In this document: piece after piece, positions 41,262-47,223 of the stretch | Layout of the letters: every line of letters begins with the position of its first letter | How positions within the stretch are numbered: the stretch's first letter is position 1 | NCBI GenBank assembly: GCA_902605645.1 | Contig: CACLDE010000003.1 | Location: 1-64,000, forward strand | Direction of reading: 5' to 3' | DNA length: 64,000 bases | Source: an uncultured Pelagibacteraceae bacterium | Lineage (GTDB): Bacteria > Pseudomonadota > Alphaproteobacteria > Pelagibacterales > Pelagibacteraceae | Notes under the pieces: generated by a model | Database searches by the model: none | Told to the model about the DNA's origin: nothing | Seen by the model: the letters and a program-made list of their open reading frames with translations, nothing else | Position numbers and translations under genes: made by a program

Positions 41262-41891
41262 ATGGATAAAAAATATCCCAAAAAAATACCTGTGTTCCCT
41301 TTAAGTGGAGTCATATATTTTCCGAAAACAAATTTGCCGTTAAACATTTTTGAAGATAGATATTTAGACTTAGTGAATGATAGTTTTAGAAGCAACAAGT
41401 TGATGGGCATGGTTCAATCCAAAAAAGAGAATAATTTGGTTTATAAAGTTGGTTGTCTTGGAAGAATCAGTGACTATCAAGAGACATCCGACGGCAGGGT
41501 TTTAATAAATTTAACTGGTATAATAAGATTTGAGATAACAAAAGAAATTAGTAATCAAAAAAGATATAGAGAGTTTGAGGTTAATTATGAAAAATTTCAT
41601 AAAGATGTTCTCAGCCCAGAGAATATAGCACGTGTTTATGATAAACAAAACTTTATGGAAAAGATTAAAAGATTTTTTGAAAAAAACGGTTTAATGATTA
41701 ATTGGAAAGAATTTGAAAAATTAGATGAAACTCAAAAAATAAATACTCTTTCAATGATTGCGCCGATTTCAAATGAGGAAAAGCAAAAACTTCTTGAAAC
41801 TATAAGTTTAAGCGATAAGACAGATACTTTGTTAAATATTATAAAATTTTATTCATACGAAAACTCATATGACAAGGAAACAATTCAATAA
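41262..41891 (+). CDS. LON N-terminal (substrate-binding) domain protein
   Basis: A 209-residue protein consisting of the Lon N-terminal domain alone, without AAA+ or protease parts. Features are KKIPVFPLSGVIYFPKTNLPLNIFE, RYLDLVND, MGMVQ and GCLGRISDYQETSDGRVLINLTG. Stand-alone versions are common in alphaproteobacteria and of unproven function. It has a consensus promoter abutting its start and no Shine-Dalgarno. Confidence 0.9.
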   Translation: MDKKYPKKIPVFPLSGVIYFPKTNLPLNIFEDRYLDLVNDSFRSNKLMGMVQSKKENNLVYKVGCLGRISDYQETSDGRVLINLTGIIRFEITKEISNQKRYREFEVNYEKFHKDVLSPENIARVYDKQNFMEKIKRFFEKNGLMINWKEFEKLDETQKINTLSMIAPISNEEKQKLLETISLSDKTDTLLNIIKFYSYENSYDKETIQ

Positions 41892-44120: not shown

Positions 44121-45113
44121 TTATAAGGCTCCTTTTATTAGTTTTTCAAGTAAATCTAAGTGATTGTCGCTGTCGTTCAGACAGGGCACAACGTCAAAGT
44201 TTTTTCCTCCAGATTTTAAAAAGCTTTCTTTGCCTTGGATAGATATCTCCTCAAGAGTTTCAACGCAGTCAGATGAAAAGCCTGGACAAATTACTAAAAT
44301 ATTTTTTTTTCCCTTTTTTGGTAGATCTTCGAGAGTTTTATCTGTGTAAGGTTTAAGCCACGCTTCTGGTCCAAACCTGGATTGAAAAGTCGTTTTTATT
44401 TCAATGCTTTTAAATTCTTCTGCTAACAATCTAGATGTTTTGTGACAATAACAATGATACGGGTCCCCTTTGTCAAAATATTTTTGAGGAATTCCGTGAT
44501 ACGACGCTATAACTAAGTCTGGCTTCCAACTTATTTCGGCTATTTTTGAACTAAGGCTTTTCGAAAGTGCTTTAATATAAAGGGGGTCCGACTCATAGTG
44601 AGGTATTATCTTTAGGCTTGGCTGCCATCTCATGCCCATTAAAACTCTATATATCTCATCACAGACTGTGGCAGTTGTTGCTGCTGCATATTGAGGATAA
44701 AGTGGTAGAACAACAAGGTTTTCACATCCAGCCTCATGTAATTTATAAATTTTACTTTTAATGCTTGGATTTCCATAGCGCATGGCGTAATCAATAATCA
44801 AATCTTTGCTTTTAATTCTATCTAATAGTTTTTTAGTTTGCATGATTGTGTAATATCTTAGTGGTGACATGTCCTCTTTCTTCATCCATATTTCTTTATA
44901 AGCTTTTGCTGTTTTTGCCGGCCTTATGTTTAAAATAATTAAATTAAGGATTATTTGCCAAAGAAAAGGGTTTACTTCGATAACTCTTTTATCAGATAAA
45001 AATTCCTTTAAATACTTCCTTATATCAAACCATCTTGTAGAATCTGGTGTTCCCAGATTAATTAATAGAGCTCCTGTTTTGCCAAAATTTATTTTCGGGT
45101 GGTCTTTGTTCAT
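44121..45113 (-). CDS. hemH: Ferrochelatase
   Basis: HemH inserts iron into protoporphyrin IX to make haem. The 330-residue protein has GALLINLGTPDS, the iron-site histidine block SYHGIPQKYFDKGDPYHCYC, FQSRFGPEAWLKPYTDKTLE and CPGFSSDCVETLEEI. It overlaps hemE by 4 nt and is next to hemJ with no gap, making a compact late haem pathway operon. Confidence 0.97.
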   Translation of the reverse strand: MNKDHPKINFGKTGALLINLGTPDSTRWFDIRKYLKEFLSDKRVIEVNPFLWQIILNLIILNIRPAKTAKAYKEIWMKKEDMSPLRYYTIMQTKKLLDRIKSKDLIIDYAMRYGNPSIKSKIYKLHEAGCENLVVLPLYPQYAAATTATVCDEIYRVLMGMRWQPSLKIIPHYESDPLYIKALSKSLSSKIAEISWKPDLVIASYHGIPQKYFDKGDPYHCYCHKTSRLLAEEFKSIEIKTTFQSRFGPEAWLKPYTDKTLEDLPKKGKKNILVICPGFSSDCVETLEEISIQGKESFLKSGGKNFDVVPCLNDSDNHLDLLEKLIKGAL

Positions 45114-46120
45114 CTTGTAATTGAGTTCACTTTATCTACAATTTTTTTTATAATATTAGGGTTTGTTTCTGGGAGAATACCATGGCCAAGATTGAATATG
45201 TAGGGGTTATTCTTAAATATTTCCAAATATCTTTCTGACTCCTTTAATGCCTTTCTCTCACCCTTTAAAAGAACCTCTGGGTCCATTCCTCCTTGTATAC
45301 ACACATCATTAAGGTTAGCTTTCGCCCATATCGGATCAACTTTTTGATCAATGTTGATTGCATCTGGCTTTACTTCCTTTAAAAATTTCTTGTAATTATT
45401 TTTAAGCCCCTTTGGAAAACAAATTGATGGTATTTCATTTTCTCTGCAGAAGTTGACTAAGCTTTTATTTGGTGTGAAACAGTATTCTTCTAGATCTTCC
45501 TCTTTAATAAGTCCGGCCCATGAGTCAAAAATTTGTATTATTTCTGCTCCCGCTTCTTTTTGTTGTATTATATGAAGTTTAAGAAATGTGTCTAGTTTTT
45601 TTAGGACTGATTTAATTTCTTCCTTATTTTTTATTGTTATTTTTTTTGTTTGGTCAGGTTGTTCTTTAAGATTATACAGGTAGATTATAAGAGTCCAAGG
45701 AGCGCCAATAAATGCTATTAGTGACTTATTTTTTTCTAATATATTTCTGGTTTTTTTTATACTTTCATAAACAGGTTTTAGTGTTGTTAAAAATTCTTTC
45801 TCTTTTGTCTCTAAAAAGATGTCTAAATTAAAACTAGAATTGCGAGGGCCTCCTTTATCTCTAAATTCTATTTTTTGTTTTAAAGCATTTGGTATAACTA
45901 AAATATCTGAGAAAATTATCGCTGCGTCCAAGTTAAACCTTTTAATAGGTTGTAAGGTAATTTCAGTAGCTAAATTGCTATCATAACATAATTTAAGAAA
46001 ATCTGGATTTTTCAGTCTTAGTTTTCTAAATTCTGGGAGGTATCTTCCTGCTTGTCTCATAAACCATATTGGCACACAAGAGAAATCTTTTTTAATTAAA
46101 CAATTCAACAGTTTACTCAT
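45110..46120 (-). CDS. hemE: Uroporphyrinogen decarboxylase
   Basis: HemE converts uroporphyrinogen III to coproporphyrinogen III. The 336-residue protein has PIWFMRQAGRYLPEFR, ILVIPNALKQ, FIGAPWTLIIYL, IQIFDSWAG and FNLGHGILPETNP, all family signatures. It is the first gene leftward from the candidate replication origin and is transcribed away from it. Confidence 0.97.
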   Translation of the reverse strand: MSKLLNCLIKKDFSCVPIWFMRQAGRYLPEFRKLRLKNPDFLKLCYDSNLATEITLQPIKRFNLDAAIIFSDILVIPNALKQKIEFRDKGGPRNSSFNLDIFLETKEKEFLTTLKPVYESIKKTRNILEKNKSLIAFIGAPWTLIIYLYNLKEQPDQTKKITIKNKEEIKSVLKKLDTFLKLHIIQQKEAGAEIIQIFDSWAGLIKEEDLEEYCFTPNKSLVNFCRENEIPSICFPKGLKNNYKKFLKEVKPDAINIDQKVDPIWAKANLNDVCIQGGMDPEVLLKGERKALKESERYLEIFKNNPYIFNLGHGILPETNPNIIKKIVDKVNSITR

Positions 46121-46401
46121 AACATTAATAATATATTAATAAGAGTAGTTATTGTAATAGGTCATGTTAGTATCGACTATAATTAATTATACTTGGTTTT
46201 AAACATTTTATACCTATGGACGTGAATAAATTTGCTCTTATTTGAACAATTGATAGAATTATACCCACAGTTTATAGTTTGGGTATAAAATGATTAACAG
46301 CGAACAAAATGTACCAAACATGTTAATTAATGTGAGTAAATTTTTTTTATCTGTGGTTTAAAAATACAAGTCAAAGCTATACAATTATTATTAACAGATT
46401 T
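46121..46401. other. Candidate chromosomal replication origin (oriC)
   Basis: This 281-nt gap is the longest non-coding stretch here and separates divergent hemE and the PEP synthase regulator gene. The same gene pair flanks the known or proposed origins of Caulobacter and Rickettsia. Sites matching 8 of 9 positions of TTATNCACA are TTATTCACG (minus, 46229-46221), TTATACCCA (plus, 46259-46267), TTATACCCA (minus, 46288-46280) and TTACTCACA (minus, 46339-46331); TAAACCACA (minus, 46360-46352) matches 7. The segment beside hemE (46125-46160) is almost pure A/T and could unwind. None of the boxes is a perfect match, so the call leans on synteny. Confidence 0.65.
46259..46288. repeat. Inverted repeat in the putative origin
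   Basis: TTATACCCA (46259-46267) and TGGGTATAA (46280-46288) are perfect 9-bp arms around a 12-nt centre. Each arm is one mismatch from a DnaA box, so this may be a head-to-head pair of DnaA sites rather than a transcription hairpin. Confidence 0.6.
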
Positions 46402-47223
46402 ATGAACGAAAAATACAATGTATATCTTATCTCAGACTCCACGGGTGAAACCTTGGATAGAATATTTTTATCATTACAATCCCAATTTAAAAATTTTTAT
46501 TATGAGAAAAAAGAATTTTTCTTTGTTAGAACCGAACAACAAGTAGATAAAATAATTAGCGAGGGAATCAAAGGGCAAAATCCAATTATACTTTATACAA
46601 TCGTAGAAACAAAGCTTGCTAAATATCTATCAAGGAAAAGTGAAGAAACAAGCATCCCATGTTTTGGTGTTCTTGGAAGTTTAATTTTAGCTTTCTCCAA
46701 ACTATTAAACCAAAAGGCAATTCACAAACCTAGTGCTCAACATGTATTGGATGATGATTATTATAAAAGAATTGAGGCTATACAGTTTACAATGTCTCAT
46801 GACGATGGGAAAAGAACAGAAGACTTATCAAGTTCAGACGTAGTTTTGTTGGGGGTTAGCAGAACCAGCAAAACTCCAACTTCAATTTATTTAGCAAACA
46901 GAGGTTACAAAACAACAAATATACCATTGATACCTAAACAAGATATACCTAAAGATTTAAAAAACAACAACCTCAAATCTTGTGTGATCGGCTTATTCGC
47001 TGACCCGGACAGGCTTTCAGATATAAGGCGTAATCGAATAGCCTTAATGCAAGAAAGTAGATCTTCGAATTACACAGATATCAGCTCTATAAAAAAAGAA
47101 GTGGAAGATTCTAAAAAATTATTTAAAAAATATAATTGGCCGACTATTGATGTTACAAGGAAATCAGTTGAAGAAACAGCTGCGTCGATTATAAAAATAA
47201 TTGAGATTAAAAAAAATAAATGA
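46402..47223 (+). CDS. Pyruvate, water dikinase regulatory protein (kinase/pyrophosphorylase, DUF299)
   Basis: A bifunctional regulator that phosphorylates and dephosphorylates PEP synthase or pyruvate phosphate dikinase, controlling PEP synthesis. The 273-residue protein has LISDSTGETLDRI at the start, the P-loop LLGVSRTSKTPTSIYLANRG and the C-terminal IDVTRKSVEETAASI. It is the orthologue of the Rickettsia gene beside hemE at the origin. It overlaps maf by 4 nt (ATGA). Confidence 0.93.
   Translation: MNEKYNVYLISDSTGETLDRIFLSLQSQFKNFYYEKKEFFFVRTEQQVDKIISEGIKGQNPIILYTIVETKLAKYLSRKSEETSIPCFGVLGSLILAFSKLLNQKAIHKPSAQHVLDDDYYKRIEAIQFTMSHDDGKRTEDLSSSDVVLLGVSRTSKTPTSIYLANRGYKTTNIPLIPKQDIPKDLKNNNLKSCVIGLFADPDRLSDIRRNRIALMQESRSSNYTDISSIKKEVEDSKKLFKKYNWPTIDVTRKSVEETAASIIKIIEIKKNK

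Follow-up and report, generated by a model that had tools for sequence, protein, structure and literature searches.

The bacteria of the SAR11 group rank with the most numerous cells of the ocean, and the question raised by the locus described here is where replication of their chromosome begins. No SAR11 origin sequence was found in the open-access literature, among the matches listed. The DNA belongs to an uncultured Pelagibacteraceae bacterium with a draft genome of 811 kb (72% complete), and the analysed stretch, called the window below, is the first 64 kb of its 133.7-kb contig C3. Close relatives in the genome collection bear the same family label, which denotes SAR11. The first-pass annotation had proposed a chromosomal origin in the gap between hemE and the gene of the PEP synthase regulator PpsR (COG1806), on the ground that this gene order marks the origin of Caulobacter and was proposed to do so in Rickettsia. 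This agrees with the literature, as according to the available part of PMC1914354 the Caulobacter Cori was placed by experiment in the hemE/COG1806 interval, which also holds the Rickettsia prowazekii origin.

Gene order and length of the gap

Open reading frames and NCBIfam matches confirmed a gap of 281 bp at 46121-46401 and the annotated outward direction of the genes on both sides, with rho-hemJ-hemH-hemE to the left and PpsR-maf-aroE-coaE-dnaQ to the right (Table 1). The gap had been called the longest non-coding one, and it is indeed the longest ORF-free run of the window, the contig edge at 1-310 excepted. Its G+C content is 0.23, as compared to 0.302 for C3. An Rfam scan returned a single microRNA match with an E value of 0.19, far under the gathering score, and this candidate was rejected. 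To the left of rho, a stand-alone LON substrate-binding domain protein of 209 aa (PF02190) is encoded at 41262-41891.

Table 1. Features in and beside the gap between hemE and PpsR, in window coordinates
Feature	Position	Strand	Basis or occurrence
hemE, left boundary gene	45110..46120	-	TIGR01464 above cut-off
oriC candidate, divergent intergenic gap hemE/COG1806	46121..46401	.	ORFs, NCBIfam, homologous gaps in genus, family and order
AT-rich stretch beside the trinucleotides, candidate DNA unwinding element	46121..46145	.	weakest helix of region
Five trinucleotides TAG TTA TTG TAA TAG, DnaA-trio-like	46146..46160	+	T in fixed 3-base register in relatives
4-base spacer GTCA, trinucleotides to box A	46161..46164	+	sequence
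DnaA box A, ATACTAACA in window (TTATTCACA or TTATTAACA in many relatives)	46165..46173	-	<=1 mismatch in 55/97; window 2 mismatches
Conserved direct DnaA box region, degenerate in window	46187..46216	+	aligned starts 46187, 46198, 46208
1-mismatch site TTATTCACG, not conserved	46221..46229	-	1 mismatch to TTATNCACA
Head-to-head TTATACCCA pair, not conserved	46259..46288	.	second arm missing in L151, L017
DnaA-like box TGATTAACA	46291..46299	+	55/97 aligned gaps <=1 mismatch; window 1 mismatch
Conserved DnaA box position, degenerate in window	46310..46318	-	49/96 <=1 mismatch; window 3
DnaA-like box TAATTAACA	46321..46329	-	21/47 aligned gaps <=1 mismatch; window 1
DnaA-like box TTACTCACA	46331..46339	-	1 mismatch to TTATNCACA; TGTGAG also in L151, L017; no peak column in alignment
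DnaA-like box TTATTAACA adjoining PpsR	46388..46396	+	74/97 <=1 mismatch, 54 exact to TTATN[AC]ACA; exact in window
PpsR / COG1806 (PPDK/PEP-synthase regulator), right boundary gene	46402..47223	+	NF003742 above cut-off

PpsR was found in 20 of 25 drafts of the genus, at all 20 loci it is divergent from hemE across 265-286 bp, and the five drafts without a PpsR match were left out of the gap comparison. Truncated hemE matches occurred in four genus drafts (G001, G004, G010 and G023), in at least two cases right where a contig starts, which suggests that assemblies may break near the origin. In a wider genome collection the divergent hemE/COG1806 arrangement was present in all 40 loci labelled Pelagibacteraceae, Pelagibacter or Fonsibacter and in 20 of the 40 remaining ones, among them Brevundimonas (L121) and Phenylobacterium (L132), which carry the complete order rho-hemJ-hemH-hemE, COG1806-maf-aroE-coaE-dnaQ; a COG1806 match near hemE was absent in 20 of the 80 collection loci. 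PpsR was not found in the 16 genomes of family f2 of the same order (0/16), where hemE is divergent from maf instead, and the gap still measures 273-280 bp in all 11 loci fetched.

The loci of family f1, to which the window belongs, came from three sources (20 genus, 40 collection and 29 order loci) between which species may recur; the hemE loci L026-L042, L044 and L046 are from genomes already represented by L006-L025. A gap length of 260-290 bp was found in 88/89 loci of family f1 and 11/11 of family f2, i.e., in 99 of 100 members of the order, as compared to a range from 274 to 630 in 20 other loci that are alphaproteobacterial by label. L162, with a gap of 342 bp, is included in the length count and omitted from the motif counts. 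The gap is a length-fixed module of about 270 bases, which is kept in nearly all relatives examined.

DnaA-box-like sites

No perfect DnaA box occurs in the gap, as had been annotated, and the sites with at most one mismatch to TTATNCACA are five rather than the four listed before, starting at 46221(-), 46259(+), 46280(-), 46331(-) and 46388(+). The mean in 2000 dinucleotide shuffles of the gap was 0.87 (P about 0.0005), and nowhere else on the contig are such sites clustered as densely within 285 bp. By the motif TTATN[AC]ACA the window gap has just one site and is not the top cluster of the contig. The 88 gaps of family f1 together hold 378 sites with at most one mismatch to TTATNCACA, where shuffles gave 69.6 (sd 7.3); for TTATN[AC]ACA the corresponding numbers are 245 and 15.5.

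The 99 gaps of the order were merged to 97 distinct ones and aligned, and every column was scored for at most one mismatch to TTATN[AC]ACA, the column mean being 0.013. Several columns stand far above this mean (Table 1). Within the direct box region, the starts at 46187(+), 46198(+) and 46208(+) scored in 56/97, 52/97 and 44/86 gaps with 3, 5 and 2 mismatches in the window, respectively, and a further column at 46270(+) scored in 40/97 gaps with 5 mismatches in the window. The head-to-head inverted repeat 46259(+)/46280(-) reported by the first-pass annotation is a real pair in the window, but its second arm is absent in both close relatives compared. The window's own DnaA boxes are weak, and the conserved features include neither the 46221 site nor the inverted repeat.

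The sequence TTATTAACA was read as a drifted DnaA box because at the box A column some species have TGTGAATAA where others have TGTTAATAA. When aligned with the E. coli chain 1j1v, domain IV of the DnaA encoded in this genome has kept intact the ARPRQ and RDHTT stretches, which we take to be those that contact DNA. A relaxed DnaA consensus had been suggested for this lineage; since domain IV keeps both stretches, the boxes themselves seem to have drifted toward TTATTAACA.

The trinucleotide track and the promoter alternative

The weakest 30-bp helix of the region begins at 46112, and 0.4% of the contig windows are weaker. To the left of box A, T recurs at every third base (-19, -16, -13, -10 and -7). 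Among 34 representatives below 70% identity the mean T frequency was 0.86 in phase, as compared to 0.32 and 0.33 out of phase, and in the genus of the window it was 0.80, as compared to 0.37 and 0.23. At least four of five T-trios together with a box of at least 6/8 were present in 65/88 gaps of family f1 (shuffle mean 4.2, max 10) and in 1/20 of the other alphaproteobacterial gaps (shuffle mean 0.3, max 2). The pattern alone occurs six times on C3 and may therefore arise by chance in a single genome, so that the evidence is the register common to relatives. One gap of family f1 (L160) had no anchor for this comparison, and the anchors of several gaps of family f2 are misplaced.

The DnaA-trio system of Bacillus subtilis and others, as presented in the available part of PMC8287927, shares with the window a run of trinucleotides that ends within a few bases of a DnaA box and also the orientation, i.e., 5'-TAG repeats, a spacer and a reverse box. 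The 4-base spacer of the window leads to a box A column that is conserved, with two mismatches in the window itself. In contrast to that system, it is the first T that is best conserved here, and not the middle A. The search pattern given in PMC8287927 demands three middle-A trios; two consecutive ones, counted from the spacer, were found in the window, and at least three in 22/87 anchored gaps of family f1.

A plainer reading is that the gap is merely the divergent promoter region of hemE and PpsR. Divergent genes do need promoters, and 8 promoter-like matches were found at 46000-46500, as compared to 4.3 (sd 2.4) in shuffles. A promoter region would not account for a length that stayed fixed when the right-hand gene changed from COG1806 to maf, nor for the array of DnaA sites with its trinucleotide register, nor for the composition switch found at this gap in a relative (see below), and we regard this reading as very improbable.

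Position of dnaA and parS

The origin might also lie beside dnaA, as in many bacteria, the hemE gap being a relic of synteny. The dnaA gene is on the same contig at 116,974-118,368, 71 kb from the hemE gap, and the distance was 61-72 kb in all nine genomes measured (three of family f1 and six of family f2). The dnaA upstream gap is just as AT-rich (G+C 0.20-0.24 in most) and as conserved overall, as the within-genus identity of 0.648 for the hemE gap is not above the 0.640 of the dnaA gap in the only comparison made (10 genomes). On the other hand, the dnaA upstream gap had no TTATN[AC]ACA site in 10/10 genus genomes, and sites with at most one mismatch to TTATNCACA were found there in 1/10 genomes, as compared to 2-5 such sites in each of the hemE gaps of these genomes.

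The parS sites are also closer to the hemE gap than to dnaA. Two parS cores TTTCACGTGAAA with a spacing of about 170 bp were found 18.0-21.2 kb to the right of the gap in all ten genus contigs that reach that far, two further contigs ending before that point. The cores occur nowhere else on the stretches searched, the expected number on C3 being 0.015. There are none inside the 64-kb window, as they lie just past its end; on C3 the parS-like cores are at 64297 and 64469 (L002:297, 469), in rsmG/gidB, before a ParA-like gene and parB. In the closed genome described below (G042), a single perfect parS was found at a distance of 16.9 kb from the gap. The gene parA, as well as rpsT and dnaN beside dnaA, was named from sequence, and parA has no NCBIfam match at the threshold used. 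In Caulobacter parABS sits near the origin, a feature common to that genus and this lineage.

Composition skew

A check by cumulative GC skew over the full genome had been proposed. The raw cumulative skew of C3 did not bear the origin out, as its minimum is at 29.7 kb and not at the gap, and this measure was judged to be of no use by itself. After correction for gene strand, a switch was found on C3 at 46,000 (gain 11.2) with inverted sign, and there was none at 116.9 kb, the position of dnaA (gain 0.09).

The only closed genome tested was G042, with 1,160,202 bases and from another genus of the same family, for which gene strand and replication strand were modelled as factors. Its hemE/COG1806 gap is at 1,089,984-1,090,305, and a 10-kb grid put the optimum of the strand-corrected GC3 switch at 1,090,000. 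The dnaA gene, which lies at the start of the record and 70 kb from the gap, was 16.8 scaled log-likelihood units worse. When NNR, NNY and fourfold sites were combined on a 2-kb grid, one switch was found at 1,090,150, with dnaA 30.6 worse. The grid is symmetric, so that the fit 'ori 532150, ter 1090150' with lower leading-strand G equals an origin at 1,090,150 with a G-rich leading strand. Fourfold sites alone were uninformative (gain 4.8, best point 1,106,150, dnaA just 3.0 worse), and T/A at third positions gave no useful signal. The raw skew minimum of G042 is at 1,072,418, 18 kb from the gap, and the non-coding skew minimum is at 86-94 kb. A skew minimum and a coverage peak elsewhere, for example beside dnaA, had been named as the result that would speak against the hemE gap; the raw minima do lie elsewhere, and the strand-corrected switch of G042 lies at the hemE gap. 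With dnaA 17-31 units worse in this genome (3.0 for fourfold sites alone), without a switch on C3, without TTATN[AC]ACA sites upstream and farther from parS, an origin beside dnaA is even less probable than the promoter reading.

Within the genus (12 genomes) the fourfold switch peaks at -1 kb from the gap (gain 33) and is inverted, the leading-strand genes being the poorer in G, and NNR codons have normal polarity with an optimum at +15 kb, the gap being 6.9 units worse. Taking the gap as origin, the fourfold G-over-C skew within 50 kb of it is lower in leading- than in lagging-strand genes in 12/12 genus genomes, and NNR codons are of usual polarity in 10/12, a mixed polarity with the fourfold sites. 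The leading-strand genes of the genus seem to differ in codon choice, and the fourfold switch was therefore not counted as mutational skew; nor was it counted as independent support, since the 12 genomes share orthologs. About 61% of the genes within 50 kb of the gap point away from it (552/910 in the 12 genomes, which share many orthologs). The inverted fourfold skew of all 12 genomes could also be taken to mean that the gap is the terminus, or a neutral point at which composition switches. This is the least probable of the readings considered, because NNR codons keep normal polarity in most of the genus, the polarity of G042 is normal, and both parS and the gene order point to an origin; the inversion more likely stems from the codon choice of leading-strand genes.

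IHF, CtrA and CcrM motifs

The window gap contains no IHF consensus site. The IHF motif WATCAAN4TTR was found in 18/88 gaps of family f1, a modest enrichment over shuffles (mean 7.0, max 13), and a looser consensus was at chance (26/88, shuffle mean 23.3). One CtrA-type palindrome TTAA-N7-TTAA lies in the window gap at 46125-46139, and the palindrome was present in 34/88 gaps of family f1 (shuffle mean 19.7, max 27). Pelagibacter is described as having no ctrA ortholog in the available part of PMC2877005; in our regulator search for CtrA, two of the eleven strongest matches were scanned and both were PhoB. The CcrM motif GANTC is absent from 83/88 gaps of family f1, the contig average being 0.43 per 275 bp, and the low G+C of the gaps may explain this scarcity.

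Discussion

Our results support the origin proposed at 46121-46401. The gene order, the composition switch of G042, the position of parS, the constant gap length and the conserved array of DnaA sites place oriC at the hemE gap and not beside dnaA, and we put the probability that this gap is a DnaA-dependent chromosomal origin, positionally homologous to the Caulobacter Cori, at about 0.94. Its location and architecture are conserved among relatives, a composition switch coincides with it in one of them, and parS is close by. The known hemE/COG1806 origin type, which is ordinary among alphaproteobacteria, has hemE and COG1806 as boundary genes and an intergenic region of 200-1000 bp with AT above that of the genome and a cluster of DnaA sites. 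The gap belongs to this type by its boundary genes, its size (281 bp), its AT content (G+C 0.23) and its DnaA cluster, with five sites in the window gap and an array conserved over 97 aligned gaps. Further marks of the type are an IHF site, CtrA sites, a shift of composition skew and a homology to relatives above that of other intergenic regions; the window gap has no IHF consensus and, next to the dnaA upstream gap, no higher homology.

As far as described in the available part of PMC1914354, the Cori of Caulobacter crescentus shares with the gap both boundary genes, the AT-rich sequence and several DnaA sites. It differs in its length of over 400 bp, as compared to about 270 bp here, and in its five CtrA sites, as compared to one TTAA-N7-TTAA palindrome in the window gap; this gap also lacks, unlike Cori, an IHF consensus and a perfect DnaA box. 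The origins predicted for Rickettsia, Ehrlichia, Anaplasma and Wolbachia in the same source share hemE as a boundary gene, with COG1806 opposite in Rickettsia. They are 383-620 bp long, as compared to 260-290 here, and DnaA, IHF and mostly CtrA sites are reported for them.

DnaA binding, unwinding and bidirectional firing are predicted to take place at the gap. DnaA would bind the box array between 46165 and 46396 and nucleate at box A (46165-46173), from which the oligomer may extend over the 4-base spacer onto the + strand trinucleotides at 46146-46160. The AT-rich DNA would then open toward hemE, the helicase would be loaded, and two forks would depart along the transcription directions of the flanking operons. 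As a tentative idea, to which we give somewhat under even odds, SAR11 and its sister family may possess a minimal origin of a distinct kind, locked in length at about 270 bp, with a fixed T-first trinucleotide unwinding track and boxes drifted to TTATTAACA that are read by a canonical DnaA. It would have no IHF site in most members and no CtrA control, and its length would be kept despite loss of a flanking gene.

Growth estimates from metagenomes compare the coverage of origin and terminus, and one such tool assigns dnaA-bearing fragments to the origin, according to the available part of PMC7852909. In the nine genomes measured here, 61-72 kb separate dnaA from hemE. For SAR11, one report derived both origin and terminus from GC skew (PMC9516812) and another derived the terminus from coverage (PMC9589681); in their available parts neither used an origin sequence. 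With a defined origin of 270 bp, DnaA footprints, plasmid tests and origin-anchored coverage become directly feasible.
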